From contig JAOAHZ010000009.1 of NCBI GenBank assembly GCA_026414975.1, positions 72,038 through 113,171 on the forward strand: a stretch of DNA of 41,134 nucleotides, read 5' to 3'. Positions 19,986 through 36,359 of the stretch are shown one piece after another. The translations under genes were made by a program, and so were the position numbers. The stretch is from Bacteroidia bacterium. Lineage in GTDB: Bacteria; Bacteroidota; Bacteroidia; SpSt-205. Under the pieces are notes generated by a model. The model saw nothing but the letters and a program-made list of their open reading frames with translations, did not search any database and was not told the DNA's origin. Position 1 is the stretch's first letter. Each line of letters starts with the position of its first letter.

Positions 19986-20591
19986 TTAGGTTTTAGGTTG
20001 GGCTTCTAAGGTAGAAATAAGATTGAATCGATGTACTTTCTGATCTTTGAGCGTCTCTATAATCCGAGCTATAACAGGATAAGGGGCTTTTTCGTCTGCA
20101 CGAATGGCTATGCGAATCTTGGGATTGCTGTACCGAGCAAAAAGAATCCACTGTTTGAGCTGATTGTTGCTGCTATCAACAGGAATAGAGACGCGCTTAT
20201 CCATGGCCTTGCGCTCCATGTCGCTTAAGGAAAGATAGGACTTGAGCTGCTCAAAAGGCACCCCCACCTCCGCCAGGACAGAAAAAATTTGCTTTTCCTT
20301 ATCAGTGAACTGATAACCGTATCGGTCTTTTATTTTTTCTAAGATAGCCAACCGAGTGTGCTTGCTATCCACACCAAAGAAAATCCGCCCATCAGCCGAT
20401 ACGGAAATCGTGAGGATATCTTGGGCTGGCAGAGGGGTGTCTGCAATAGAGGAGGGGAGGTCAACCTCTATGGCTTCGGGAGCCCGAAATTTCACCGTTA
20501 GCATAAAGAAGGTAATAAGCAGAAACGCCAGGTCGACCATCGGGGTCATGTCTATGGCGATATTCTGCTTTTTCGCCTTAAACTTAGCCAT
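19986..20591 (-). CDS. exbD: ExbD-like biopolymer transporter (first copy)
   Basis: The 201-residue protein has a short N-tail and a transmembrane helix beginning IDMTPMVDLAFLLITFFM, with the conserved Asp at Asp20. The periplasmic domain (about 45-201) ends in the usual ExbD fold (IRIAIRADEKAPYPVIARII). It has a long insertion about residues 85-135 compared with proteobacterial ExbD. It lies 3 nt after exbB. Confidence 0.94.
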   Translation of the reverse strand: MAKFKAKKQNIAIDMTPMVDLAFLLITFFMLTVKFRAPEAIEVDLPSSIADTPLPAQDILTISVSADGRIFFGVDSKHTRLAILEKIKDRYGYQFTDKEKQIFSVLAEVGVPFEQLKSYLSLSDMERKAMDKRVSIPVDSSNNQLKQWILFARYSNPKIRIAIRADEKAPYPVIARIIETLKDQKVHRFNLISTLEAQPKT

Positions 20592-20594
20592 GGA

Positions 20595-21440
20595 TTAGGC
20601 CTTTGCTTGGAAGGTTTGAACGATGATATAACCTGCCTCATCTATACGGTAAGTGATATCGTCTATGCGGCTGGTAAAATAGTTATAGACAATCGTAGCT
20701 ATGGTGGAAGTTGTGATCCCTAAGGCGGTATTGACGAGAGCTTCAGAAATACCCGTAGCTAAGGCTACTGCATCGGGAGCTCCTGACGTAGCTAAGGCCG
20801 CAAAAGCCCGGATCATCCCTAAAACCGTCCCAATCAGACCTATGAGAGTCGCAATAGAAACTATCGTAGCGATTATGGTCATGTGCTTCTCTAACATCGG
20901 TAGTTCCAGAGCTAACGATTCCTCCAAGGCCTTTTGCAGGGCAGCCACTTTCTGGTCTTTATCCAGCTTGGTGTCGTCTTTGACTTGCTTGAGGCGAGAT
21001 AGAGTCTCTCGGACCACATTCCCCACTGTCCCACGCTGCTTGTCGCATAATGCGATAGCTTCATCTATACGGTCCTGCTCCAAGAGGTACTCTATCTGCT
21101 GGACAAAACTCTCCATGCTCATCTTCCCTGAAGCTCGAGCCAGGGTGATAGCCCGCTCTATAGACATGGTGATAGTGATAAGCAAGAGGCCGATGGCTAT
21201 TGGGACTAATACACCCCCTTTGTAGGCGATACCCAGGTAGTTGCCCTGGAGAGGGTTGTTTTTAGGGTCGCCTCCTTCAAAGTTAGCGGGATTCCCGAGA
21301 ATAAACACGTAGAAGAGAATGCCCACCGTGATACAGGCGACGATGACTATTGTGGCAAAAAATTCACGAAGCGCCGTACCTCCAGATCGAACTTGAGGGG
21401 TCGCCGCTTTTGCAGGTGTTTGAGTAGCTGTCTGACTCAT
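20595..21440 (-). CDS. exbB: ExbB/MotA-type proton channel subunit
   Basis: The 281-residue inner-membrane protein forms the pentameric proton channel of the Ton system. It has an N-terminal helix (about 28-48), another (about 80-97) and the conserved MotA/TolQ/ExbB pair (about 190-265), with ATLIGLIGTVLGMIRAF and ALVNTALGITTSTIATIVYNY. I chose ATG 21440 (MSQTATQ) because a perfect TATATTTG element lies 7 nt upstream; the frame from 21467 would start before it. It is divergent from rplS. Confidence 0.95.
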   Translation of the reverse strand: MSQTATQTPAKAATPQVRSGGTALREFFATIVIVACITVGILFYVFILGNPANFEGGDPKNNPLQGNYLGIAYKGGVLVPIAIGLLLITITMSIERAITLARASGKMSMESFVQQIEYLLEQDRIDEAIALCDKQRGTVGNVVRETLSRLKQVKDDTKLDKDQKVAALQKALEESLALELPMLEKHMTIIATIVSIATLIGLIGTVLGMIRAFAALATSGAPDAVALATGISEALVNTALGITTSTIATIVYNYFTSRIDDITYRIDEAGYIIVQTFQAKA

Positions 21441-21447
21441 ACCAGCG

Positions 21448-21455
21448 CAAATATA
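21448..21455 (-). promoter_or_regulatory. -7 element (TATATTTG) for the exbB-tonB operon
   Basis: A perfect TAnnTTTG match with 7 nt to ATG 21440. A TTTG lies 17 nt upstream and could be the -33 contact. No Fur box was recognised. Confidence 0.6.
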
Positions 21456-21510
21456 GCAAGCCTGCAAAAATCCAAATAGAGTTTGGCGTTGGCTCTATGG
21501 GGAAACGCCA

Positions 21511-21518
21511 TACCTTTG
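21511..21518 (+). promoter_or_regulatory. -7 element (TACCTTTG) for rplS
   Basis: A perfect match with 4 nt to the rplS ATG. A TTG at 21489-21491 lies 19 nt upstream, the expected -33 spacing, which makes this the best-formed promoter in the window. Confidence 0.65.
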
Positions 21519-21522
21519 CAGT

Positions 21523-21882
21523 ATGAGCCATCTAATCCGCGAGATCGAGTATCTCATTAATGCCCCCTATGTCAAATCTGACCTTCCTGAGTTCCGTGCC
21601 GGAGATATTGTACGCCTACATATGAAGATAGTGGAAGGGGGGAAAGAGCGCATCCAAATCTTTGAGGGCATGGTGATTCAAAGACGAGGAAGCGGAGTGC
21701 GTGAGTCCATAACTGTACGGAAAGTATCGGGTGGAGTCGGTGTAGAGCGCATCGTGCCGATACATTCACCCTTTCTTCAAAAAATAGAGGTGGTTCGGAA
21801 GAATCGGACCAGACGAGCGCGCTTATTCTATATGAGAGGACGATTAGGGAAGGCCCTGCGTCTCAAACGGCGAGACGAATAA
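21523..21882 (+). CDS. rplS: 50S ribosomal protein bL19
   Basis: The 119-residue protein carries the standard L19 signature: [34 protein letters not shown] and [19 protein letters not shown]. bL19 sits at the 30S-50S interface. The ATG is 4 nt after the -7 element. The usual rpsP-rimM-trmD neighbours are absent; instead the large CHAT gene follows after 12 nt. Confidence 0.97.
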
Positions 21883-21894
21883 AGGGTAGATGTT

Positions 21895-24800
21895 ATGAGA
21901 AGACTTGTCCTTGTATGGATCGGTTGGCTTCATGCTCAAGGTCTGCCGTTTGAAAAGCTTTACTTTTCGGGCAAAGTCTCTTCCTTTGGAAAGAAAGTTA
22001 CTGCAGCCTACAAAAGGGCGATCCGAGGTCACAGCAGCGCCGATCCTGCTACTTTGGGAGTAGCATTAGCTTATGCTCTGTACCAGTCGGACATCCATGA
22101 TCTGAAGGAAGCCGAAACGGCCCTGCGTCCTTACTTAGCTATTTTACAAGGTTCAGGGAACCTTCCAGCTCAACTACGGCTCTATTACCATTGGATTGAA
22201 GGACGCTTGGCAAGGCGACGCGGATACCTAAAATATTCTTCCAATGCCCTGCGTCAAGGTTACACTTTCACTCAATCCCCATGGGAGCTTGCCTTATTGC
22301 GTTTAGAGATGGTAGAAAACTTACTTCTTCTCGGAAATGCTACGGCAGCTCAAGATACCCTTTCTCAACTACCCCTCTCTGACCAGCTTCAAGAGCCCTA
22401 TCGAAGCTATCTCCAGGCACGGGCTGATTACCTAAAAAGAGTTATCTTGTGGGAAAAGGGGGAGTGGGATTCACTGCTTGTCAGGCCCACCCATAAACCC
22501 AAGAACCAACTTGAAGCCCTATACGAATCTGAGTACGCCTACTTGAAGGGCTTAGCCGCTTTTATGCAGGGAAATGTCCGAACCAGTCAAAAGTTCTCAC
22601 GCACCAGCATACACTACGCTAAAAAGACCGTCAATAAGGGCAAAGACCTTGTTATCCGAGCCGAAGCCCTGCGACTTTTAGGATACTACACTACAACTTA
22701 CAAGATTAGAAACCCCTCTAAGCTCCGTTACCTGAACCCCCTTATCAAGGCTTTTAGCTCTCCAGCCCTTCCTACAAGCTACGCTACCATACAAGCGTTG
22801 GAGCATATAGAAGCCATCGGACGCATAACCCGGCGCAGCGACTTAGCTGAAAACATCCTAAGTAATCGGCTCAGTGATGCGGAAGGGCTCCGTAACATTC
22901 AGATTCAGAGACTGGCTTCTCAGGCGGCTCGCGCTCAATATAGAGGCACTATAGCACTCGGCTACGCCAGCCAAGCTGCGCTTCGAGCAAAAGAGGAAAT
23001 AGACTTTCCCTCTGTGGAGGGAGCCCTCTCTTTAGCGGAACTTGGGGAAGCGGCCCTCGTAGCTTACCATTACCCCCAAGCCGACACCGCCTTTAGTGAA
23101 GCCTATGGAATGCTGATCAAGCTGGGAGAACCCGAGGGCCCCCGAACCCTCCCCTTGTGGGCCTCTATCGGACGATACAAGCTCACAGCCGGGCGCTATA
23201 AGGAAGCCGAAAGAGTCTTCCTACGACAACGCGATAGCTATAAGCGCCTATTAGGCATGCCAGAGAAAAATCTGAACTATCTGAGAAACGAGCTAGCTCT
23301 CGCCCAAATCGCTTTACGCTTAGACGAAGTGGCAAAAGCAGAAACCCTACTAAGCCATGTAGATAAGCTCATCCAAGACATGGGCGATGTAGCTTTCCGT
23401 GAGCGGATTGCCTTGGAAGAAAGTCAAGGAGACTTGGCCCAAGCCAAAGGGCAATTTCGGGAAGCCGAAAGACACTATTTAGAGGCCATCCGGTTGCGCC
23501 AGCGGTACAAGCGAGGGGCTAAAGACACAGAAGAGATAGAGGGCAGTAGTCTATTACGCTTGGCTCTTTTATACCAAAAGACAGGGAGACTCTCCCGAGC
23601 CCGAGAAGTATATCAGCGAATCGGCACCGCCTACGACCGCCGAAAACAAGAAGATGCCGATATGGCCTCTTTCTACATCGGGCTGACCGATTTTTATCTG
23701 GCTATAGGGGACTACCTCAAGGCAGAAGAGAGCGCACGAAAAGCCCGAGATATCAACAAGAAGCTGTTTGGAGAGGCCTCACCAGGGTACATTGAAGCCA
23801 TCTTAGCCTCAGCGCGGGTAGAACGAGCTCTAGGACGATACGAGAAACAGAAAGCCTTTCTCTCAGCAGCTCTCACCGCTCAACGCTCTTTTTATCAGGA
23901 TAAACCGACGATTGCCTTGGGTCGCACCCTATACCTCCTTGCTGAAAATGCTTTGCTCTCCAATCGGCCCGATACTGCCGTTAGATACCTCACCAAGAGT
24001 AGCGATGAAGCGCGAAAAGTACAAGACTCCGCCCCAGTAGAATTTGCCAGCTTGAGCTTGGATATAAGTGGTATTTGGCTGGGATTAGATAGTTTAGCTC
24101 GGGCGGAAGAGCAGCTCAGCATGGCTCGTGCTGTGTTAGAAAGCCAGGTACCTTCTAAACATCCCTTGCGCTTATCAGCTCGGCTACATTCGGCTCGTCT
24201 CCTGCGTGCAAAGGGAGAATACCTCTCAGCTCTTCGGGAGTACTCTGTCTGGCTCAATCAGTGGAAAACCATTTATGGGACTCAGCATCCCGAGTATCCG
24301 TTTCATCTCGCTGAGCAAGCCGATCTCTACTGGCTTGCCAGGGATCTCAGCTCTGCTAAAAATACCTACAAAAAAGCCGTGTCCCTTTTACTTACCCAAG
24401 TGGACCGGCTCTTCAACGGACTTACGGAAAACGAGAAGGCCCGCTACTGGATAAAAGTACGCCGAGTCTTGGAGCATTATTACGCTTTTAGTTTCACCTT
24501 AGGTACGGATCGGGATAAGCTACAAGCCTACGAGACCTATCTGACCACTAAGGCTTTCCTTCTCAGTGAAACAGCGCAACTTAGAGCTCGACTCTCCGCC
24601 AGCCGAGATTCAACTATACAACGGTTATTCAAAGAATGGCAGGATCAGAAGGAATACGTCGTGCGTTTGTACGCTTACACTCCGGCTGAATTGAAAGAGC
24701 TGAATATTAACCTGCCTCAGGAAGAGGAACAGCTCAATCAGCTGGAAAAAGCCCTAACTCAATACATAGGAGATATTCGGTTGAAGCCTGTTAGTTGGAA

Positions 24801-25935
24801 ATCGCTTCGAGCCGCTATACCCTCAGATGGAGCAGCGATAGACTGGATAAAACTTAGACTCCCTCTAATGCGTGACTCAGTGGTGTATTATGCTGTTCTT
24901 ACCTTACCCTCTAAAAAAGCTCCGCTATTTATAGCCTACCCAAATGGTCACCTCTTGGAGACTATAGGGCTCTTTCGTTACACCCAATCTATTCTCAACT
25001 TTGAAACCGATACGACATCTTATGGGTTATACTGGGCTCCGCTGGCCAATGCCCTTCCGCCCTCGGTCTCTAAGCTTTACCTCTCTAACGATGGAGTGTT
25101 CAATCAAATGAATCTTTCAACCTTGAGATTACCGAGTGGAGGCTACCTTGCTGATAAGTACCAGATCATCTATCACACCCGCTTAGCTAATCTCGCCAAA
25201 CCACCCAAGCCACTGCGTTATTGGGAGGGCCGGAAGGCTTTCATTGTAGCCAATCCGGATTACGCTGCGGGTATACCAGCCGACAGTATTAACATTCCCC
25301 CCCTGCCTGGCACAGACGAGGAAGCACGAGCTATCCGAGATATCCTACGCAGCGAAGGTATCTTGCCCTATGTTTATACTCGCTCAGAGGCAGGGGAAAC
25401 TGTGTTATATGAGACTGTATCACCATACATCCTCCACATAGCAACGCATGGACTATTTCTTCCTTATAGTGAGGGGATAGGAAGTTTAGTCGGCATACAA
25501 AGCGCGGAAGCTCTCTCTAATCCCCTATTTCGGTCAGCCCTCCTCTTAGCGGATGCAGGACGCTCCATGCTCTTTGGGTCACAAGACACGAAGCGAGACG
25601 GCATCGCTAACGCCTATGAGCTTTTGTCTTTAGATTTGAGCAACACGGAGCTGGTCGTTCTCTCCGCCTGTGAGACAGGACTGGGAGACATCCAGAATGG
25701 AGAGGGGGTCTATGGTCTGCAGCGGGCTTTTCTCTTGGCCGGAGCTCGTCATTTGGTCGTGAGTTTATGGCGAGTGGATGATGAGGCCACGAGAGATTTT
25801 ATGATTACCTTTTATGATGAATGGCTTCGTAAAAAGCTGCCTATTGTAGATGCCTTTTGGAATGCTCAGAAGGCAATGAGAAAGGCACGATCAGCCCCCT
25901 ACTTCTGGGGAGCTTTTGTGCTGGTTCGGCCATGA
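21895..25935 (+). CDS. exported TPR-CHAT (caspase-like) protein
   Basis: The 1346-residue protein starts with a short signal peptide (RRLVLVWIGWLHAQG). A long alpha-solenoid of TPR-like repeats follows (about 40-860; clear examples are ALAQIALRLDEVAKAETLLS and LARAEEQLSMARAVL). A CHAT domain occupies about 1020-1346. CHAT domains are caspase-fold peptidases; the His-Cys dyad is intact, with His1185 in HIATHG and Cys1259 in LSACETG, followed by GEGVYGLQRAFLLAGARHLVVSLWRVDDEAT and the final FWGAFVLVRP. If the signal peptide is right, the peptidase acts in the periplasm or outside. The only close neighbour upstream is rplS (12 nt), so expression is probably tied to it. The substrate is unknown. 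Confidence 0.9.
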   Translation: MRRLVLVWIGWLHAQGLPFEKLYFSGKVSSFGKKVTAAYKRAIRGHSSADPATLGVALAYALYQSDIHDLKEAETALRPYLAILQGSGNLPAQLRLYYHWIEGRLARRRGYLKYSSNALRQGYTFTQSPWELALLRLEMVENLLLLGNATAAQDTLSQLPLSDQLQEPYRSYLQARADYLKRVILWEKGEWDSLLVRPTHKPKNQLEALYESEYAYLKGLAAFMQGNVRTSQKFSRTSIHYAKKTVNKGKDLVIRAEALRLLGYYTTTYKIRNPSKLRYLNPLIKAFSSPALPTSYATIQALEHIEAIGRITRRSDLAENILSNRLSDAEGLRNIQIQRLASQAARAQYRGTIALGYASQAALRAKEEIDFPSVEGALSLAELGEAALVAYHYPQADTAFSEAYGMLIKLGEPEGPRTLPLWASIGRYKLTAGRYKEAERVFLRQRDSYKRLLGMPEKNLNYLRNELALAQIALRLDEVAKAETLLSHVDKLIQDMGDVAFRERIALEESQGDLAQAKGQFREAERHYLEAIRLRQRYKRGAKDTEEIEGSSLLRLALLYQKTGRLSRAREVYQRIGTAYDRRKQEDADMASFYIGLTDFYLAIGDYLKAEESARKARDINKKLFGEASPGYIEAILASARVERALGRYEKQKAFLSAALTAQRSFYQDKPTIALGRTLYLLAENALLSNRPDTAVRYLTKSSDEARKVQDSAPVEFASLSLDISGIWLGLDSLARAEEQLSMARAVLESQVPSKHPLRLSARLHSARLLRAKGEYLSALREYSVWLNQWKTIYGTQHPEYPFHLAEQADLYWLARDLSSAKNTYKKAVSLLLTQVDRLFNGLTENEKARYWIKVRRVLEHYYAFSFTLGTDRDKLQAYETYLTTKAFLLSETAQLRARLSASRDSTIQRLFKEWQDQKEYVVRLYAYTPAELKELNINLPQEEEQLNQLEKALTQYIGDIRLKPVSWKSLRAAIPSDGAAIDWIKLRLPLMRDSVVYYAVLTLPSKKAPLFIAYPNGHLLETIGLFRYTQSILNFETDTTSYGLYWAPLANALPPSVSKLYLSNDGVFNQMNLSTLRLPSGGYLADKYQIIYHTRLANLAKPPKPLRYWEGRKAFIVANPDYAAGIPADSINIPPLPGTDEEARAIRDILRSEGILPYVYTRSEAGETVLYETVSPYILHIATHGLFLPYSEGIGSLVGIQSAEALSNPLFRSALLLADAGRSMLFGSQDTKRDGIANAYELLSLDLSNTELVVLSACETGLGDIQNGEGVYGLQRAFLLAGARHLVVSLWRVDDEATRDFMITFYDEWLRKKLPIVDAFWNAQKAMRKARSAPYFWGAFVLVRP

Positions 25936-25954
25936 AAATGTTTATATAGGAGAT

Positions 25955-26278
25955 ATGAAGTTGATACTTACTCCTTCAGCTGCAGCGGAGCTTCGCCGCA
26001 TCTGGGAAAGCTCGCCAAACTCAGCTGGATTTAGATTAGCAGTAGAAGCAGGAGGCTGCGCCGGCTTGACTTACGAACTGGAGCTTCTTTCCGAATCGCC
26101 CGAAGGCATGTTACCCCTTGAAGTATCGGGCATTCCGATTTATGTATCAGAGGGCCATCAAACGCTATTAGATGGCATAGAAATAGACTTCCCCACTGGA
26201 TTAGCGGCACGAGGGTTTGTATTTCGAAACCCTCAAGCTCGTATCACCTGTGGCTGCGGGACATCCTTCGCCGTGTAG
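25955..26278 (+). CDS. A-type iron-sulfur carrier (IscA/ErpA/HesB family)
   Basis: The 107-residue protein holds or delivers Fe-S clusters or iron. The three family cysteines are Cys35 (GGCAGLTY) and Cys99/Cys101 (CGCGTSF). ATG 25955 is preceded by ATAGGAGAT, a rare good Shine-Dalgarno-like match in this window, and follows the CHAT stop by 19 nt. The longer frame from 25916 overlaps the CHAT gene and is rejected. Whether it is IscA, SufA or ErpA cannot be told. Confidence 0.92.
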   Translation: MKLILTPSAAAELRRIWESSPNSAGFRLAVEAGGCAGLTYELELLSESPEGMLPLEVSGIPIYVSEGHQTLLDGIEIDFPTGLAARGFVFRNPQARITCGCGTSFAV

Positions 26279-26285
26279 TTTTTTG

Positions 26286-26293
26286 TATTTTTG
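26286..26293 (+). promoter_or_regulatory. -7 element (TATTTTTG) for rpsF-rpsR-rplI
   Basis: A perfect TAnnTTTG match with 8 nt to the rpsF ATG at 26302. It overlaps the GTG at 26293 that would start a longer frame, arguing against that start. Confidence 0.55.
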
Positions 26294-26301
26294 TGCCGCC
26301 T

Positions 26302-26670
26302 ATGCCAAGATTAGACCCAGTTGGGCAGTACGAGGTTACTCAGATATGGCCCCCCGACCTCACGGGAGAGGAACAGAAGCAGTATTTAGATGAATTCAAC
26401 CAGTTTCTGACTGAAAATGGAGCTGAAATCGTCAATCAAGAGGTCTGGGGGCTTCGCCGCTTAGCTTACCCCATCCGCAAAAAAGAAGCGGGTTATTACG
26501 TTTATACGGAGTTTCGAGCCCGAGCCTCTTTCATCGCTCAGCTGCGCCGCTACCTTCAACTGCGCCCCTTTGTGATGCGCGAACTTATCGTGAAGTTAGA
26601 TAAGCACGCCATAGAGTACAATCGTCGCCGACAAGAAAAAGTCCGTCATCAAACCCCTTCTGAGGTATGA
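26302..26670 (+). CDS. rpsF: 30S ribosomal protein bS6
   Basis: The 122-residue protein has the bS6 ferredoxin-like fold: [38 protein letters not shown] and a final strand ending MRELIVKL. It binds bS18 and 16S rRNA in the platform. ATG 26302 is chosen over GTG 26293, which lies on the promoter. The 3' end overlaps rpsR by 4 nt. Confidence 0.96.
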
Positions 26671-26951
26671 GCTTAGACAAAGGAATAGGCCCAGCGCCCT
26701 CTAATCCTGCCTTAGCCGCTTTATCTGGCGTACGCCAGCGGAAGAAGTTTTGCTTCTTTAAGAAGAGCGGGATTCGGTACATTGACTATAAGGACCCCAC
26801 TTTTCTCTTCAACTTTATCAATGAACAGGGCAAGATACTCCCTCGCCGCATCACAGGTACGAGCTGGAAGTATCAGAAACAGCTGGCGCGCGCTGTCAAG
26901 CGAGCCCGTCACTTAGCCCTTCTGCCCTTCGTCGCCGACAACCTCAAGTGA
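26667..26951 (+). CDS. rpsR: 30S ribosomal protein bS18
   Basis: The 94-residue protein has the core [38 protein letters not shown] and a basic tail ending [12 protein letters not shown], all typical of bS18. The N-terminal extension of about 24 residues is Ala/Pro-rich. The ATGA overlap with rpsF suggests coupled synthesis of the S6-S18 dimer. Confidence 0.97.
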
Positions 26952-26958
26952 TAGCCCT

Positions 26959-27426
26959 ATGCCCTCTCGAAGCGTAGAAGTTATCCTGAAGTCAGATATA
27001 GACGGCTTAGGACACAAGTACGACATTGTAAGGGTTCGCCCCGGCTACGCATGGAACTATCTCCTGCCCCAAGGCCTAGCCGAGTTAGCCACCGATGGAG
27101 CGAAACGCCAATTAGCTGCCCATTTACGCCAGATAGCTAACAAGCTGGCTCAGGAAAAAGCTGCAGCCGAGCAACTTGCCGCTTCTATGAGCGGTCTGAA
27201 ACTACAGCTAAAGATGCTCGCTGGCAAAGAAGGCAAACTATTTGGAGCAGTTACACCTCAGCACATAGTCAGCGCCTTGGCCGAACAGGGCTATACCATA
27301 GAACGGCGACAAGTTAGTTTTCCCGTCCCTATACGCACTTTAGGTGATTATCTCGTTCAGATTCGCCTCCATCGGGAAGTTATCGTATCGCTACCAGTGG
27401 AGGTAGTTCCGACGGAAGAGGACTGA
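26959..27426 (+). CDS. rplI: 50S ribosomal protein bL9
   Basis: The 155-residue protein has the bL9 N-domain (VEVILKSDIDGLGHKYDIVRV, GYAWNYLLPQGLA), a long connecting helix rich in Ala/Gln/Lys (about 50-85), and the C-domain with GKLFGAVTPQHI. It lies 7 nt after rpsR. No ssb or priB gene occurs between rpsF and rpsR. The 202 nt to the convergent nrdB gene hold only the hairpin described separately. Confidence 0.96.
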   Translation: MPSRSVEVILKSDIDGLGHKYDIVRVRPGYAWNYLLPQGLAELATDGAKRQLAAHLRQIANKLAQEKAAAEQLAASMSGLKLQLKMLAGKEGKLFGAVTPQHIVSALAEQGYTIERRQVSFPVPIRTLGDYLVQIRLHREVIVSLPVEVVPTEED

Positions 27427-27565
27427 GAATTCCGCAGGATAGTTCTCTTCATAGGTAACTTGCCAAAGGCAGGCAGGGGAGCCGCCTTATACCTAACTGT
27501 ATAAACGAGCCAGAACCTGGTTGCTTTGAGGATTGACGGGGAGAGAGTTTTAGCCTTTATCTTTT

Positions 27566-27604
27566 GGGGGGGGCGCCAGCGCCGAAGGCGCTGGCGCCCC
27601 CCCC
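27566..27604. terminator. perfect 18-bp GC hairpin between convergent genes
   Basis: Eight G followed by CGCCAGCGCC at 27566-27583 pair perfectly with GGCGCTGGCG followed by eight C at 27587-27604, leaving a GAA loop. It sits between the 3' ends of rplI (plus) and nrdB (minus), the expected place for a bidirectional transcription stop. Neither side has a T-tract of the intrinsic-terminator type, so the terminator role is inferred from position and stability. Confidence 0.6.
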
Positions 27605-27628
27605 AACTACCTCACCTCTTACCCTAAC

Positions 27629-28714
27629 TCAGAGCTCATCGTCGCTAACTACAGCCAGGGCGGAGGCTTTTCGGTACTCTGTAACGCGCCCCTCAAAAAA
27701 GTTCTGTTCCTTACGGATATCCATTAGCTCTGCCAACCAGGGCAAAGTATTTTGAGCACCCGGATAAAGGGGGTCTAATCCAACGCCTTGAAGGCGGCGA
27801 TTGGCGATGTAGTGGATGTATTCAATGAACTCTTCAGGCTTCAGCCCCACAGCTGGCAGGGGCAGACAGTCCCGAATAAAATCCTCCTCCAAACGCACAC
27901 CTTGAGCCATGAGGCTTCTCAGCTCCTCTTGAAACGACGAAGTCCATATATCAGGATTCTCATTCACCAGCTCCAGAAGGAGTCGCCGAAATAGTTCTAT
28001 GTGGTTGCTCTCATCTCGCAAAGTATAACGGAACATTTGACCGATGCCTGGAAACTTGCCCTGACGATAGAGGCTAAGAACCATACCAAAAAGTCCATAA
28101 AACTGCGTACCTTCCATAATCAGACCAAAGGTGAAGATGTTCTTTGCTAAAAGCTGTTTGTTCGCTGTCAGGGTCAAATCCAAGCCTCGCCTAAGCGCAT
28201 GAGATATTTCTGTAACAAATGCATTTTTCGCACGAATAGTTGGCACATCCAAGAACATAGCTTCGCACTCATACGGGTCTATGCCCAGCGATGAAATCAT
28301 GTACAAGAGAGAATCAGCATGCACATTTTCCTCATGCGCATGACGACCTAACACGAGCTTGAGCTCGCTGGCGGTTACCAGCTCGCGCACCACATGTAGG
28401 ATATTATCGCCCACGATGCCTTCCGCAGCCGAGAAGTATCCAACCGCCATCCGAATGATCCACCTGTCTATGTCTGAAACCTCCCTGCTTTTCCATTGAC
28501 TGACATCCTTATTCATCGGAATATCCTCGGGCTCCCAATGATTGGCTTTCATGGTCCGATACAGATCATACGCCCAAGGATATTTGAGAGGCATAAGATT
28601 GAACGCCATCGTGATGCGTCCATTAATGACTCGCTTCTCGGCGATAGCTTGCTCAGCCTTATCTACATCCAACACAAACTCTCGTCCCCCAAAGGTGTAG
28701 GTGCGTGTAGCCAT
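27629..28714 (-). CDS. nrdB: class Ic-like ribonucleotide reductase R2 subunit (no radical Tyr)
   Basis: The R2 subunit supplies the oxidant that starts ribonucleotide reduction in the R1 partner. The 361-residue protein follows the chlamydial (class Ic) sequence type. Metal ligands are Glu98 (SAAEG), Glu129 and His132 (EENVH), Glu201 (IMEG), Glu235 and His238 (RDESNH). The first ligand is Glu, as in chlamydial R2, not Asp as in E. coli. The residue that is the radical Tyr in class Ia and Phe127 in Chlamydia is Leu136. Trp60, Tyr138, Tyr230 and C-terminal Tyr347 match the chlamydial electron-transfer residues. The start ATG is 4 nt after TAACTTTG. No nrdA is in the window. Confidence 0.93.
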   Translation of the reverse strand: MATRTYTFGGREFVLDVDKAEQAIAEKRVINGRITMAFNLMPLKYPWAYDLYRTMKANHWEPEDIPMNKDVSQWKSREVSDIDRWIIRMAVGYFSAAEGIVGDNILHVVRELVTASELKLVLGRHAHEENVHADSLLYMISSLGIDPYECEAMFLDVPTIRAKNAFVTEISHALRRGLDLTLTANKQLLAKNIFTFGLIMEGTQFYGLFGMVLSLYRQGKFPGIGQMFRYTLRDESNHIELFRRLLLELVNENPDIWTSSFQEELRSLMAQGVRLEEDFIRDCLPLPAVGLKPEEFIEYIHYIANRRLQGVGLDPLYPGAQNTLPWLAELMDIRKEQNFFEGRVTEYRKASALAVVSDDEL

Positions 28715-28718
28715 ATGG

Positions 28719-28726
28719 CAAAGTTA
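28719..28726 (-). promoter_or_regulatory. -7 element (TAACTTTG) for nrdB
   Basis: A perfect TAnnTTTG match with 4 nt (CCAT) to the ATG at 28714. I found no NrdR-box-like repeat in the 105-nt gap. Confidence 0.6.
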
Positions 28727-28819
28727 ACGGAAGAAGCGACGAGCCGGTTTCACAGCAGAGTGAAAAACATGTGGAAAGGGTACAAACGACATCCCCCCTC
28801 AGTGGAGAGAATGAACAGG

Positions 28820-29941
28820 CTAATCTACTGGACTTCGATGAAGAACGACATTTCGGTCTGATAAATAGCTCCGGACATACTCAAAACACCCCGGAATGCC
28901 TGCAAGCTGCTCTGGAGCATAGACGCCTGGAGGAAGCTCAGCTTTATCTAAAAGCCAGGTTGCCAAAGCAGTACAGGTGTATCCAGTCGTACGAGCCATA
29001 GAACTGATTTGCCTCGGCACGTCCGCTGTGTCTATCAAGGTGTAACGAATGGTTTCAGACTGGACGGTGTGTATATGTACATCCATAATAGTCATGTCCT
29101 CGTCAGTCGGGGACATAGCCCATGCCTTGTACAGGAGAGCGGCTGTAACCTGTCTCGGGCGGATCAGCCCTTCTTGAGTCTCTATGGGTTCATCTGAGAG
29201 AAATCCCGCCTGAAGCAATAATTGTATATACTCTGCATGACCAGGGTATCGAAGGGTTTTCTCTATGAGCGTGGGAACGGAGGTATTGCGAAGTAGAGTT
29301 CTCAGGCCGTCGGTATTGAAAGCCTCTAAGAGGCCGATATCAGGGATAGAAACCAGCTCCAAGTCTGACAAGGGAGGCTTTATTACCATAGAACCCCCGA
29401 TACGCTGACGCACTGGACGCGTGTACTCCTCAATCACATCCTCGGGAGAGAAAGGCGCCTTATACTGAAAGGGCCAAGAGGGCTTCAATGGAAGCCCCCC
29501 TACGTAGCATACAAACCGATCCACAGCTACATGAGAGGACTCGTAGCCCAGCAGAAGATTACTCAAGCCAGGTGCTACGCCTGCATCCACCACCAAGATA
29601 GAGCCACTGCGCACAGTAAGCTCGGATAAATCATACGGGTCTTGCGGAAAAAACGATATATCTACTATCCTTTTACCCATGCTGACCAGCTCCTGCAAAA
29701 TCTTATAGGCCACCCTACCAGGTAAGGCAGTGATGATGATATCAGACTTTAGAATGATCTCATGCAGCGGATCAAGCGAGACCAAATCAGCCGTGATGAC
29801 TTCTATGGAGGCGGACTCTGCTTGGAGAGCTTGAAGAGCAGCGGGATTGCGGTCAGCTGCCGTAACAATATGCCTTTGAGCCAAATCTAAGGCGATAGCA
29901 CGCCCAACTCGCCCCGCCCCGAGAATCAAAAAGTGAGCCAT
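28820..29941 (-). CDS. saccharopine dehydrogenase-family oxidoreductase
   Basis: The 373-residue enzyme has an N-terminal Rossmann domain (LILGAGRVGRAIALDLA, then DRNP and the ADLVSLD pair) and a C-terminal saccharopine/lysine dehydrogenase domain with DAGVAPGLSNLLLGY and a TTGYTCTALATWLL helix. It resembles the lysine 6-dehydrogenase and carboxynorspermidine dehydrogenase branches more than the two-domain eukaryotic enzymes. The substrate could be saccharopine, lysine or another amino acid. No lysine genes adjoin it. Upstream is a one-base-short version of the promoter element (TAACTTG, 5 nt from the ATG). Confidence 0.82.
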   Translation of the reverse strand: MAHFLILGAGRVGRAIALDLAQRHIVTAADRNPAALQALQAESASIEVITADLVSLDPLHEIILKSDIIITALPGRVAYKILQELVSMGKRIVDISFFPQDPYDLSELTVRSGSILVVDAGVAPGLSNLLLGYESSHVAVDRFVCYVGGLPLKPSWPFQYKAPFSPEDVIEEYTRPVRQRIGGSMVIKPPLSDLELVSIPDIGLLEAFNTDGLRTLLRNTSVPTLIEKTLRYPGHAEYIQLLLQAGFLSDEPIETQEGLIRPRQVTAALLYKAWAMSPTDEDMTIMDVHIHTVQSETIRYTLIDTADVPRQISSMARTTGYTCTALATWLLDKAELPPGVYAPEQLAGIPGCFEYVRSYLSDRNVVLHRSPVD

Positions 29942-30076
29942 GGGGCAAGTTAGGCATTATTTGTCCATCCAGTGGGAAGGCTATCCTACCTCACCTCTCT
30001 CTGAAACTAATCAGTCGGGTCCTCCGCAAGACTGTGCCTGCGATGGAATATCAGAAGAACTCCCTCAAGGGCGCTG

Positions 30077-30613
30077 CTATTCTGCTTCCACCGACACTAC
30101 TTCTGGCACGAGGCGCTTAAGTAGATTTTCTATCCCCGCTTTGAGGGTAAAGAGGCTGGAAGGACATCCAGAGCAGCTACCTTGCAGACGCAGCCGAACT
30201 ACGCCACTATCAAACCCTAAAAACTCCACATCCCCCCCATCCATAGCTATCCCAGGACGAATGTATTCCTCTAGGACGCTCCTAATCTGCTGCTCAATAG
30301 ATGAACCCTCTTGGGCTTCCTGTGACTGGCGAGCGACAAGGGGACCTTGGGGAAGGTAGGTCTGGAGTACTTGCTTGACCTCAGGAATGATGGCGTGCCA
30401 GCTCGCCTCTTCAGATTTAGACACCGTAATAAAAGCCCGAGTGAAGAAAAGCCCACGAACTCCAGGAATCTTCCACAGCTCTCGAACGAGCGGTTCGTCC
30501 TCCTCCGTGGGTGCCGTAGCCTCATAGGTGCCCCGCTGAATAGCCGGGTACTCAGGAGGCACGATAAACTTCAAACTGTGAGGATTTGGGGTAATCTCCG
30601 TATAGATGAGCAT
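30077..30613 (-). CDS. NifU-like Fe-S scaffold (Nfu)
   Basis: The 178-residue protein has an Nfu N-terminal domain (MLIYTEITPNPHSLKFI, ending near residue 90) and a NifU C-terminal domain (about 105-178). The C-domain carries the cluster-binding CxxC as Cys147/Cys150 in GSCSGCPSS, together with GIAMDGGDVEFL. Such proteins hand [4Fe-4S] clusters to target enzymes. ATG 30613 is chosen because this is the normal Nfu N-terminus; the frame to 30637 adds a non-conserved stretch. It lies 73 nt downstream of nuoB and has no clear promoter of its own. Confidence 0.92.
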   Translation of the reverse strand: MLIYTEITPNPHSLKFIVPPEYPAIQRGTYEATAPTEEDEPLVRELWKIPGVRGLFFTRAFITVSKSEEASWHAIIPEVKQVLQTYLPQGPLVARQSQEAQEGSSIEQQIRSVLEEYIRPGIAMDGGDVEFLGFDSGVVRLRLQGSCSGCPSSLFTLKAGIENLLKRLVPEVVSVEAE

Positions 30614-30686
30614 AATCGGAAGGCTAAATGAAAACAACTATCAGAGATAATGAATATACCGGCTGGATGCTCCATTGATACGGAGG

Positions 30687-31181
30687 TCATACATAAGTCC
30701 TATCTTGGGAAATAGAGTGCTCACGCTGTATCTTCTTCTGAAGCTCCATTAGAGCATGCAACAGCACCTCGGGGCGAGGAGGGCAGCCAGGCACATACAC
30801 ATCTACGGGCAAGAACTGATCCACCCCTTGTACCACACCATACACTCGGTGCATCCCCCCCGTTGAAGCACAGGCTCCCATAGCAATGCACCACTTAGGT
30901 TCTGCCATTTGATCCCAAATGCGCTTAATAGCATGAGCCATCTTATAAGTACACCATCCAGCTACGATCATAACGTCAGCTTGACGAGGGGAAAAGGAAA
31001 AACGCTCCATTCCAAAGCGGGCGATATCGTATTTGGGACCGGCAGCGGCCATCATTTCTATCGCACAGCAAGCAAGTCCCATCGGCATCGGCCAAAGGGA
31101 ACCTGCCCGCGCCCAACTCACTAAATCATCTAAGCGGGCCAGCATAAAGCCCTGTTCATTGAGTACTTTCTCCAGACTCAT
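30687..31181 (-). CDS. nuoB: NADH-quinone oxidoreductase subunit B, solitary
   Basis: The 164-residue protein carries the N2 cluster of complex I. All four cluster Cys are present: [19 protein letters not shown] and PGCPPRPE. The helical segment [21 protein letters not shown] and VVQGVD...PVDVYVPG are typical. The following loop reads [11 protein letters not shown], where most family members have GT and a non-Cys residue. There is no nuoA upstream and no nuoC/D downstream, so the gene stands alone here. ATG 31181 lies 11 nt after a perfect TACTTTTG element. Confidence 0.93.
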
Positions 31182-31192
31182 ACCAATATCAA

Positions 31193-31200
31193 CAAAAGTA
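31193..31200 (-). promoter_or_regulatory. -7 element (TACTTTTG) for nuoB
   Basis: A perfect TAnnTTTG match with 11 nt to the ATG, the longest spacing seen in the window, implying a 5' leader of a few bases. Confidence 0.5.
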
Positions 31201-31295
31201 CGCTCCTTGCAGCATCTAAGGAGAGGCCGCCCTGACTCGGTGTTGGCTTACACACCTACTCCACTTAAGCAGGCCAAAGTCAAAATGCTTCCCTT

Positions 31296-31811
31296 CTAAG
31301 CTATAACCGCTCGCACTGCTTCTAATGCGGCTTCGTAGTTGGGCTCCTGAGCTATCTCCGGCACTAACTCCACATACGTTATCCTGCCATGGGCATCAAT
31401 CACAAATACCGACCGAGCTAAAATCCCCCGCAAACTCCCCTCAGCGATCACCACCCCATATTTCTCCATATCACGATAACGGTAGTCCGAGGCGATGGTA
31501 ATGCCTTGGACCTGATAACTATCACAGTACCGATTTTGAGCAAAGGGAAGGTCCATAGAGATAACCGTAGCCATGATTTTCTCACTCATGCTGGCAAGAA
31601 TCTCATTGAATTTTCGGGCCTCAGCGGCGCATACAGGAGTGTCTAAGGATGGAACCGTGATAAGGATTTGGGGCTTTCCCGTTGCTCCCCCAACCCATAT
31701 CTCTTGATTGTCGCGACGGACTAAACACACTTGCGGTGCAATCGTCCCCACGGAAAGAGGGGAGCCAGCTAAACTTAGAGGCTGCCCCTTGAGCGTTACT
31801 GTAGCTGCCAT
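31296..31811 (-). CDS. tpx: thiol peroxidase
   Basis: This atypical 2-Cys peroxiredoxin of 171 residues reduces hydroperoxides using thioredoxin. The peroxidatic Cys61 is in PSLDTPVC and the resolving Cys96 in FAQNRYC. The rest of the thioredoxin-like fold (VISMDLPF, FVIDAHGRITYVEL) matches the Tpx family. The ATG is 4 nt after a perfect TAACTTTG, so it is likely transcribed separately from hom, which ends 21 nt upstream. Confidence 0.96.
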   Translation of the reverse strand: MAATVTLKGQPLSLAGSPLSVGTIAPQVCLVRRDNQEIWVGGATGKPQILITVPSLDTPVCAAEARKFNEILASMSEKIMATVISMDLPFAQNRYCDSYQVQGITIASDYRYRDMEKYGVVIAEGSLRGILARSVFVIDAHGRITYVELVPEIAQEPNYEAALEAVRAVIA

Positions 31812-31815
31812 GCGA

Positions 31816-31823
31816 CAAAGTTA
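31816..31823 (-). promoter_or_regulatory. -7 element (TAACTTTG) for tpx
   Basis: A perfect TAnnTTTG match with 4 nt (TCGC) to the tpx ATG, inside the 21-nt gap after hom. Confidence 0.6.
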
Positions 31824-31832
31824 GTGGGCTCA

Positions 31833-33039
31833 CTACGGCTGAAACACCTGCCAATATCCTCTAAAGGGATAGGACAAAGCGAGCGTGAGCTCGGTTGGAA
31901 CAAGTGCCACGAAATAGCTCTCAGGAGGCAGCTCGCAGCAGAGTCTGTATAGGTCATCAGCCCTGCCTTGCCATAGCACGCCCTCTCCTATGGGGGTGAT
32001 AGGGCTTTTCACTTGGCTAAGGAGACGGTCGCCCCTCAGATAAAAGGTGCCTTCTAAGCCGGCTACCGTCAGCTTCGAGCCAGACAAAGGACCAGCATAT
32101 CTCGCCTTATTCAAGACAGCTGCGAGGTCCCCCAGAATAGCTGAACCGGTGGCATCCGGACCGGCTCCCATGCCTTGATAAAATTGCCATCCAGCCCACG
32201 CCCATCGCAGGAGCAAACCATTCTCCGCACCCTCCAAGCGTCCTAAGGCATGTTCGGCGGGTAGGAACGCTGGCCCTACATAAACCTCAAGCAGGTCCTC
32301 CTTCACGCGCGCATACGCCACCGGCTTGAGTAAGAGACGATGGGTCTGGCAGACAAGGTGCTCAGACTCACTAAAACCTGTAATCCCCCATAGAGATAAC
32401 GCCGAAGGAGATATTACAACCTGAAAGAATCTCCAGCTCAGCAAGATGAACTTATAAGCTGCGTCCCAACCCGAAACATCTAAGTATGGGTCCTCCTCGG
32501 CATAACCTAATCTCTGAGCTTCTCTCAAGGCTTTTTCATAGGAGGTCCCTTCTTTCAACATTCGACTCAGTATGTAGTGGGTCGTACCATTCACCACACC
32601 TAAGAGCTCTTGGGCTTTCTCAGAGGTAAAATGCCCTAAAATCCCCCCAAATACTGGCAGAGAAGCCACCGCAGCCGCTTCATAGCGGAGGACAGCTTCT
32701 GGATGCTCCCTGAGCCACGAGTCTAAAATAGCAAGGTTCTCAGCCAAAGGGCGCTTGCTTGAGGTAATCACAGCTTTTCCTGCTCGCAAAGAGGAGAAAA
32801 TGATGTCCCACCCTGCCACTGGGTCACTGGTGCATTCTATGACGACATCCGCCTTTTCCCACGCAGGATGCCAGGTGGTCTCATCGTACGCATGAAGTAA
32901 GTCGGAGGGCAAGTTAGCATGTTTTTCTTTGTGCTTAACCACCACAGCGATTAGCTCAACAGGTAAAGGAGACTGGACAGAACGGAAAATCCTATAAAAC
33001 CCACCCCCTACATTTCCAAATCCAAAGAGAATGAGGCGC

Positions 33040-33047
<8 letters not shown>
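31833..33047 (-). CDS. hom: homoserine dehydrogenase
   Basis: This enzyme reduces aspartate semialdehyde to homoserine. The 404-residue protein has the NAD(P) site (LFGFGNVGGGFYRI), the STKKP-like SSKRPLAE, and the active-site region VVNGTTHYILSRM with YAEEDPYLDVSGWDAAYK. It is monofunctional: there is no aspartokinase domain, and no clear ACT domain at the C-terminus, so threonine feedback by that route is doubtful. It overlaps metX by 8 nt and lies downstream of metY-metX, supplying their substrate. Confidence 0.95.
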
Positions 33048-35494
<2,447 letters not shown>

Positions 35495-35582
35495 TTAGTT
35501 CGGTGAAAGGTAGTTGGCAAGGCTCTCTCGGCAGCACCTGACACCGCAGAAACACATCCCCCCTACAAAACCTACAAGCGCC

Positions 35583-36359
35583 CTATCTCTGGGTCATGCT
35601 GACACCCACAGAAGCCCAGTTGCCCGTCGTCGGCTGATATCCATAACCCACATCCAACGAAACCTTTTTGTATCGCAGAGTCCATCCCGCCCCTATACCC
35701 AAAATAGGCCAGCAAACCCCAACCCTGAGTATGAGAAGAGCATGTGGAACATACACTAAAGCTGTCCTAACCTGAGGCACAGTATTTTCCTGTTGGGTGA
35801 CCTCTGTCAGGGTTTGAACTATGGGAGAGGGTTGATAGGATAATCCTATTCCGTACTGAGTCCGCCCGGGTAAATTTCCCCATCCCTTAGCTAAGAGGTT
35901 ATAGCCGTAGCCGCCCAGATACCAAGAGCCTCCTAACTTGAGAGTGAAACCCACGTCCGGTGTACCTTGATACAATCGGCCATACTCCGAGAAGGTCGTA
36001 CTCAACAGGCGAGCCCGTACAGCCAATGTGAGACGCGATCTTACCAGCCGCAGCGCATAACCTGCTCCTATTTCGCTGTGATGAATTTTATCGAAGCCCC
36101 ACCGCTGCCATAACAAATGAACGCTCTGTAAGGTGTCCCAAGTGTAACTGCCTCCCCCTGAATAGAAGATCAGCTCAGGAGCCGGTAGATACAAGGCGCT
36201 GTTCACACCAAGGTGAAATCGTTCTAAGGGAAAAACAGCCGCCGGATTGGCATTAATGGGCTCGTGCAAGAGCGTAGCCTGCGTTTGCATGGTACTCAGC
36301 AGATGAGGGGTGTAATACTGAGCCCAAAGGACCCCTACAAGAATCCCCAGATATCGCAC
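35583..36359 (-). CDS. predicted outer-membrane beta-barrel protein (PorQ/PorV-like style)
   Basis: The 258-residue protein has a short signal peptide (MRYLGILVGVLWAQ) followed by alternating aromatic/Gly-rich strands (GGSYTWDTLQSVHLLW, IGAGYALRLVRSRLTLAVRA, GGSWYLGGYGYNLLAKGW). The pattern, and NANPAAVF near the start, recall the PorP/PorQ-type barrels. I chose GTG 36359 because a perfect TATATTTG lies 5 nt upstream and the signal peptide then starts correctly; the longer frame from 36401 crosses both promoters. No functional motif was found. Confidence 0.72.
   Translation of the reverse strand: MRYLGILVGVLWAQYYTPHLLSTMQTQATLLHEPINANPAAVFPLERFHLGVNSALYLPAPELIFYSGGGSYTWDTLQSVHLLWQRWGFDKIHHSEIGAGYALRLVRSRLTLAVRARLLSTTFSEYGRLYQGTPDVGFTLKLGGSWYLGGYGYNLLAKGWGNLPGRTQYGIGLSYQPSPIVQTLTEVTQQENTVPQVRTALVYVPHALLILRVGVCWPILGIGAGWTLRYKKVSLDVGYGYQPTTGNWASVGVSMTQR

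Follow-up and report, generated by a model that had tools for sequence, protein, structure and literature searches.

The question raised by this locus, which lies within a 41,134-nucleotide stretch of Bacteroidia DNA (hereafter the window), is what kind of oxidant an R2 protein of class I ribonucleotide reductase (RNR) might hold when leucine occupies the position of the radical-bearing tyrosine. The reading frame concerned runs on the minus strand from an ATG at 28714 to a stop at 27629 with no internal stops, coordinates correctly given by the original prediction, which had left the strand unstated. The product matched the NCBIfam model NF005550/PRK07209.1 at 326.6 bits against a cut-off of 309, and the Pfam match, the individual residues and the ranking obtained with the predicted fold each indicated a ferritin-like R2 fold carrying the E/D, ExxH, E, ExxH ligand set. 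Its sequence identifies the nrdB product as the small subunit, R2 (beta), of a class I RNR, an aerobic enzyme.

Residues read by script from the translation bore out the six metal ligands of the original prediction (Glu98, Glu129, His132, Glu201, Glu235 and His238), including glutamate rather than aspartate as the first of them, and a printout of residues showed Trp60, Tyr138 and Tyr230 to be kept, as had been claimed; the offsets of +9 and +8 relative to the Chlamydia trachomatis R2 were likewise correct. Alignment to 1syy using HMMER placed Leu136 opposite chlamydial Phe127, and thereby at the radical-Tyr position. The ungapped block around His132 (chlamydial EEAVHTHTFLY against EENVHADSLLY) sets Leu136 against Phe127 and Tyr138 against Tyr129; the radical-Tyr column is marked by PDB entry 2ani, the F127Y mutant of the chlamydial protein. 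The C-terminal Tyr347 is also present. Positions of the relevant codons and neighbouring features are collected in Table 1.

Table 1. Positions within the window of nrdB, its diagnostic codons and an adjacent hairpin (Ct, C. trachomatis).
Feature	Positions	Strand	Basis
nrdB, class I ribonucleotide reductase R2 subunit, 361 aa	27629..28714	-	PF00268, 222 bits; NCBIfam NF005550 (PRK07209.1)
Leu136 codon, radical-Tyr position (Ct Phe127)	28307..28309	-	Leu in 119/119 clade members
Glu98 codon, first metal ligand (Asp in Tyr-radical R2s)	28421..28423	-	residue readout, alignment
Glu129-Asn-Val-His132 codons, second and third metal ligands (ExxH)	28319..28330	-	residue readout, conservation
Glu201 codon, fourth metal ligand	28112..28114	-	residue readout, conservation
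Glu235-Ser-Asn-His238 codons, fifth and sixth metal ligands (ExxH)	28001..28012	-	residue readout, conservation
Thr231 codon, clade signature, four before Glu235 (position of class Id L. blandensis Thr294)	28022..28024	-	alignment
Gln204 codon, clade signature (Ct R2: Phe196)	28103..28105	-	alignment
His125 codon, clade signature (Ct R2: Gln116)	28340..28342	-	alignment
Trp60 codon, radical-transfer residue (Ct Trp51)	28535..28537	-	invariant in Leu, Phe and near Tyr groups
Tyr347 codon, C-terminal inter-subunit radical-transfer Tyr (Ct Tyr338; E. coli Tyr356)	27674..27676	-	invariant
C-terminal tail SDDEL, probable R1-docking tail	27632..27646	-	D358, D359 and L361 each >=90% conserved
Perfect GC-rich hairpin GGGGGGCGCCAGCGCC-GAA-GGCGCTGGCGCCCCCC, extended by more G/C runs	27568..27602	.	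sequence

A phmmer search of the PDB returned the C. trachomatis R2 (1syy/4d8f) as the top match (E = 1.6e-76), followed by 6y2n (E = 1.9e-70), which is the R2 of Saccharopolyspora erythraea (PMC7467353). The third solved relative was a Tyr-type R2 from Francisella hispaniensis (9dws, E = 4.6e-43); mouse class Ia (E = 4e-28), class Id (~1e-6 to 1e-13) and R2-like ligand-binding oxidases (R2lox; ~1e-6 to 2e-13) followed, and class Ib also ranked well behind the C. trachomatis and S. erythraea proteins. Foldseek searches with the predicted fold placed 4m1i and other chlamydial NrdB entries first, the AlphaFold model (shallow alignment, mean pLDDT 66) being deployed for this ranking alone and not for distances around Leu136.

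A scan of genomes located 80 loci coding for proteins 70-91% identical to the nrdB product, with hosts in the Bacteroidia genus of the window, Rhodothermota (Roseithermus), Armatimonadota, Verrucomicrobiota, Lentisphaerota and Actinomycetota. Nearly full-length relatives at least 66% identical were present in 40 of the 195 Verrucomicrobiota genomes sampled; in the window's own phylum grouping only two of 395 genomes besides that of the window held relatives of this grade. No close relative was found in the viral contigs searched, nor in the phages searched, where the best match (35%) was of the Asp/Tyr type, nor on plasmids, where the relatives listed reached at most 37% over most of the protein; a phage origin was rejected on the results for viral contigs and phages.

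Sequences with leucine at the radical-Tyr position were collected as a set of 119, which were 66-91% identical apart from two at ~50%, came from at least six phyla and included a few genes fetched twice. Glu98 and Leu136 occurred together in all 119 of these homologues, so that Leu136 can be attributed neither to chance nor to sequencing error. Three further positions proved characteristic of the set: Thr231 in 119/119 (Ile or Val in all Phe-type R2s), Gln204 in 83/83 of the sequences first collected and, with one exception, in the later additions (class Ic group: Phe or Trp), and His125 with a single exception, where Trp is found (Gln in the Phe type). The position of Thr231 is that of the conserved Thr294 in the class Id NrdB of L. 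blandensis, four residues before Glu298 (PMC6754362). The sharing of these second-sphere residues across the clade indicates that Leu136 is one part of a rebuilt metal-site pocket. Tyr93, Tyr138 and Tyr230 are conserved in the Leu clade; Trp60, Tyr138, Asp234 and Tyr347 are invariant across the Leu, Phe and near Tyr groups. The identity of the first ligand followed that of the residue at position 136 strictly among near relatives, Leu- and Phe-type proteins having Glu and close Tyr-type proteins Asp; the Glu/Phe near relatives were 1syy, 6y2n, L011, L132-L136 and L233-L237, and the Asp/Tyr near relatives were the plasmid and phage proteins L187, L188, L190 and L191.

Two variants were recorded in the course of this comparison. 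One locus (L231; G554:C11:43244-45528) carries two Leu-type R2 genes in tandem, the second being a 566-aa frame, 51% identical, in which Tyr138 has become His, Tyr230 Asn and Phe209 His, and which may be a changed paralogue. A distant R2 lineage of Bacteroidota (L145, L154, L157 and L158, family code f50; ~28% identical) has Glu as first ligand, Phe in place of the radical Tyr, Ile at 138 and Val at 231; the radical Tyr seems to have been lost there independently.

Three maximum-likelihood trees built from different samples recovered the Leu proteins as one clade (support 100/99, 98/96 and 99/97), although several long branches limit statements based on these trees. The original prediction had proposed a tree against characterised classes as a check, and the nrdB product fell apart from both R2lox and class Ia: the R2lox-like proteins L167 and L168, R2lox being sampled in the first tree only, were separate with 100/100 support, and eukaryote-like class Ia was apart from the Leu clade. 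Glu98 and Leu136 also rule out both class Ia and class Ib. The Leu clade lay beside rather than inside the chlamydial group, which also contains Asp/Tyr proteins, and the S. erythraea R2 grouped in two trees with Asp/Tyr proteins (support 100/99 and 100/100), which are encoded on plasmids and phages of Gammaproteobacteria and relatives. Constraining the Phe-type R2s to one clade was rejected (AU p 0.027); constraining the Leu and Phe types together to one clade was not (AU p 0.32 and 0.29). With full support 6y2n (Glu/Phe) joined L187, L188 and L190 (Asp/Tyr), a grouping which hints at repeated switching between the Tyr/Asp and Phe/Glu states. The description 'class Ic-like' in the original prediction holds for the residue pattern, that is Glu98 and the lack of a radical Tyr, but not for membership of the chlamydial clade, since the Leu clade is separate and the Phe types do not themselves form one clade; class Ic is, however, customarily defined through cofactor and residue and not through clade. 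Inside the Leu clade the genus of the window joined Rhodothermota (support 100/98-99), and the other Bacteroidia sequences examined were Asp/Tyr R2s with the single exception of L011 (Glu/Phe); lateral acquisition, or loss elsewhere, would explain the presence of a Leu-type R2 in this genus.

Genomic context linked the Leu-type genes to an R1 partner. Directly downstream on the same strand, nrdA was present at 64 of the 80 loci, while of the remaining 16, ten were cut by contig ends and six lacked nrdA despite long flanks on both sides. It also adjoins nrdB in two congeners, in one of which (G005) the encoded NrdA combines a single Pfam ATP cone with the PF02867 barrel, scores above the cut-off of NF005544/PRK07207.1, and shows NLCTE, a second active-site Cys (AVCNLG), a YY pair (TTYYLRT) and a C-terminal CEAC. 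The complete Armatimonadota chromosome CP075366 (L045, G433) encodes a single R2 and a single PF02867 protein and lacks NrdD; the nrdB/nrdA pair is therefore the sole RNR, and the Leu-type R2 must serve it. In the single-contig congener G005 the searches gave one PF02867 protein and a single match to this R2, NrdD again being absent, and if they missed nothing the Leu-type R2 supports all deoxynucleotide synthesis in both hosts. No second R2 accompanies the gene of the window in its genome, and a Leu-type R2 stands alone in six of eight other genomes checked.

By contrast with these linked loci, the next gene after nrdB in the window is rplI-like and not nrdA, and the host assembly (58 contigs, 96.7% complete) yielded no PF02867 (NrdA/NrdJ), NrdD (PF13597) or ATP cone (PF03477) match, and no match to the NrdA of the congener. 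An assembly gap is probably responsible for the missing R1, and is the simplest account because contigs of several congeners either end within ~100 bases downstream of nrdB or cut nrdA itself. Taken together, the nrdA linkage, the sole-RNR status of the pair in CP075366, the intact ligands, Trp60, Asp234, Tyr347 and the conserved tail render a non-functional or R2lox role very unlikely, and the nrdB product can be predicted with near certainty to be catalytic in RNR.

In the mechanism proposed, the dinuclear site of four Glu and two His would take up two divalent ions, and its reaction with O2, or with oxygen in a reduced form, would raise it to a high-valent state. Since Leu136 stands in for the radical Tyr and cannot hold a tyrosyl radical, the oxidising equivalent would remain on the metal cluster, most likely as Mn(IV)/Fe(III) by analogy with C. 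trachomatis. From there Trp60/Asp234, Tyr230 and Tyr347 would relay it to the partner NrdA, whose Tyr-Tyr pair and thiyl Cys would receive it. A Glu first ligand accompanies metal-centred oxidants in classes Ic and Id (PMC8463856), and Leu136 together with Glu98 points to a resting oxidant in the form of a high-valent metal cluster. The protein is very likely a working R2 whose oxidant is centred on the metals, and it is highly probable that it has no stable Tyr radical at all. The original prediction is supported in that the protein lacks the radical Tyr, has Glu98 and keeps the radical-transfer path and the probable R1-docking tail; its Mn/Fe cofactor stands as a likely proposal. Ligand sets do not reveal metal identity (PMC4118035), and since Thr231, Gln204 and His125 alter the surroundings of the metal site with respect to the chlamydial R2, Mn/Fe cannot be assumed; closeness to that protein nevertheless favours Mn(IV)/Fe(III), and Mn/Fe would be a reasonably likely cofactor when set against Mn/Mn or Fe/Fe. 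The explanation as a whole, a working R2 with a metal-centred and most likely Mn(IV)/Fe(III) oxidant, is on balance the probable one.

Were the protein a working R2 with a di-manganese Mn2(IV,III) oxidant assembled with superoxide, it would resemble the class Id R2s of Leeuwenhoekiella blandensis (5olk/6sf4) and Flavobacterium johnsoniae (6cwo-6cwq), which share the Glu first ligand and the Thr four residues before the fifth ligand, the latter absent from Phe-type R2s. Class Id is, however, distant in sequence (8dq3, E = 6.6e-13; 6sf4, E = 1e-6; against 1.6e-76 for the chlamydial R2), retains at the position of Leu136 a Tyr that is essential there, and has Lys four residues after the first ligand (Lys174 after Glu170 in L. 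blandensis) where the nrdB product has Gly102. These differences exclude membership of class Id itself and leave the di-manganese oxidant an unlikely choice. A di-iron R2 with either an Fe(IV)/Fe(III) oxidant or a tyrosyl radical on Tyr93, Tyr138 or Tyr230 would accord with the conservation of all three tyrosines, the first of which corresponds to Phe84 in C. trachomatis; yet the chlamydial R2 also keeps the equivalents of Tyr138 and Tyr230 with a Mn/Fe cluster as its oxidant, and this possibility is likewise unlikely. It is doubtful, too, that the combination of Glu98, Leu136, Thr231, Gln204 and His125 sets apart an R2 subclass that arose independently of chlamydial class Ic and has a cofactor or a route of assembly peculiar to it, for example a di-Mn site assembled with superoxide or a Mn/Fe site made without a Phe-lined pocket.

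Readings that remove the protein from catalysis in RNR fare worse. Non-catalytic R2 paralogues such as yeast Rnr4, which depend on a second R2, can lose the radical Tyr, but the present protein keeps every ligand and is the sole R2 of its genome, as in six of eight others, so that such a role is highly improbable. An R2lox, no RNR subunit, would share the Glu first ligand, the absent radical Tyr and a Mn/Fe site (PMC4118035), but R2lox proteins lack the C-terminal radical-transfer Tyr and an nrdA partner and have an open ligand channel, with Ala at the position where the nrdB product keeps Phe205 (chlamydial F197; PMC4118035). The tree, Phe205, Tyr347 with its conserved tail, and synteny with nrdA in most relatives reject this assignment, the NCBIfam R2lox models scoring 53.7 against a cut-off of 194, and it is barely credible.

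With respect to characterised systems, the preferred Mn/Fe-type reading draws on the class Ic R2 of C. trachomatis (1syy, 4d8f, 4m1i; ~37% identity), which has the same Glu first ligand, a redox-inert residue at the radical-Tyr position and the same Trp/Tyr/Tyr path. The nrdB product differs from it in having Leu for Phe127, Thr231 for Ile223, Gln204 for Phe196 and His125 for Gln116, and in belonging to a separate clade. The S. erythraea R2 similarly combines Glu with a non-Tyr residue, but that residue is Phe, not Leu. The occurrence of Leu at the radical-Tyr site of R2c proteins had been put on record before (Högbom 2010, as cited in PMC3824934). Calling Leu the less studied variant was nevertheless a fair statement. 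The open-access literature searched, a partial coverage and thus weak evidence, yielded no purified Leu-type R2 and no biochemistry. The same literature yielded no description of the clade-wide second-sphere set (Thr231, Gln204 and His125). With the Leu variant known as a sequence, nrdB offers a system ready for experiment and does not represent a novel kind of enzyme.

Going by the open-access literature found, knowledge of the class Ic mechanism derives from C. trachomatis, and a large Leu clade with a different second sphere offers a natural test of the residues that dictate metal choice and a metal-centred oxidant. Its hosts include Verrucomicrobiota, Armatimonadota, Rhodothermota, Actinomycetota and hot-spring Bacteroidota, and thermophilic members may yield stable protein for spectroscopy. 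To annotate Leu-type genes as 'class Ia' RNR with a tyrosyl radical would be a mistake.

Elsewhere in the window, the hairpin listed in Table 1 lies where nrdB and the rplI-like gene converge, between their 3' ends, and is a possible bidirectional terminator; Rfam gave no match across positions 20000-36000. Positions 21895-25935 code for a 1346-aa protein that, on inspection by eye, resembles a run of TPR-type repeats with a CHAT-like domain (motifs ACETGLG and SLWRVDD) at the C-terminus.
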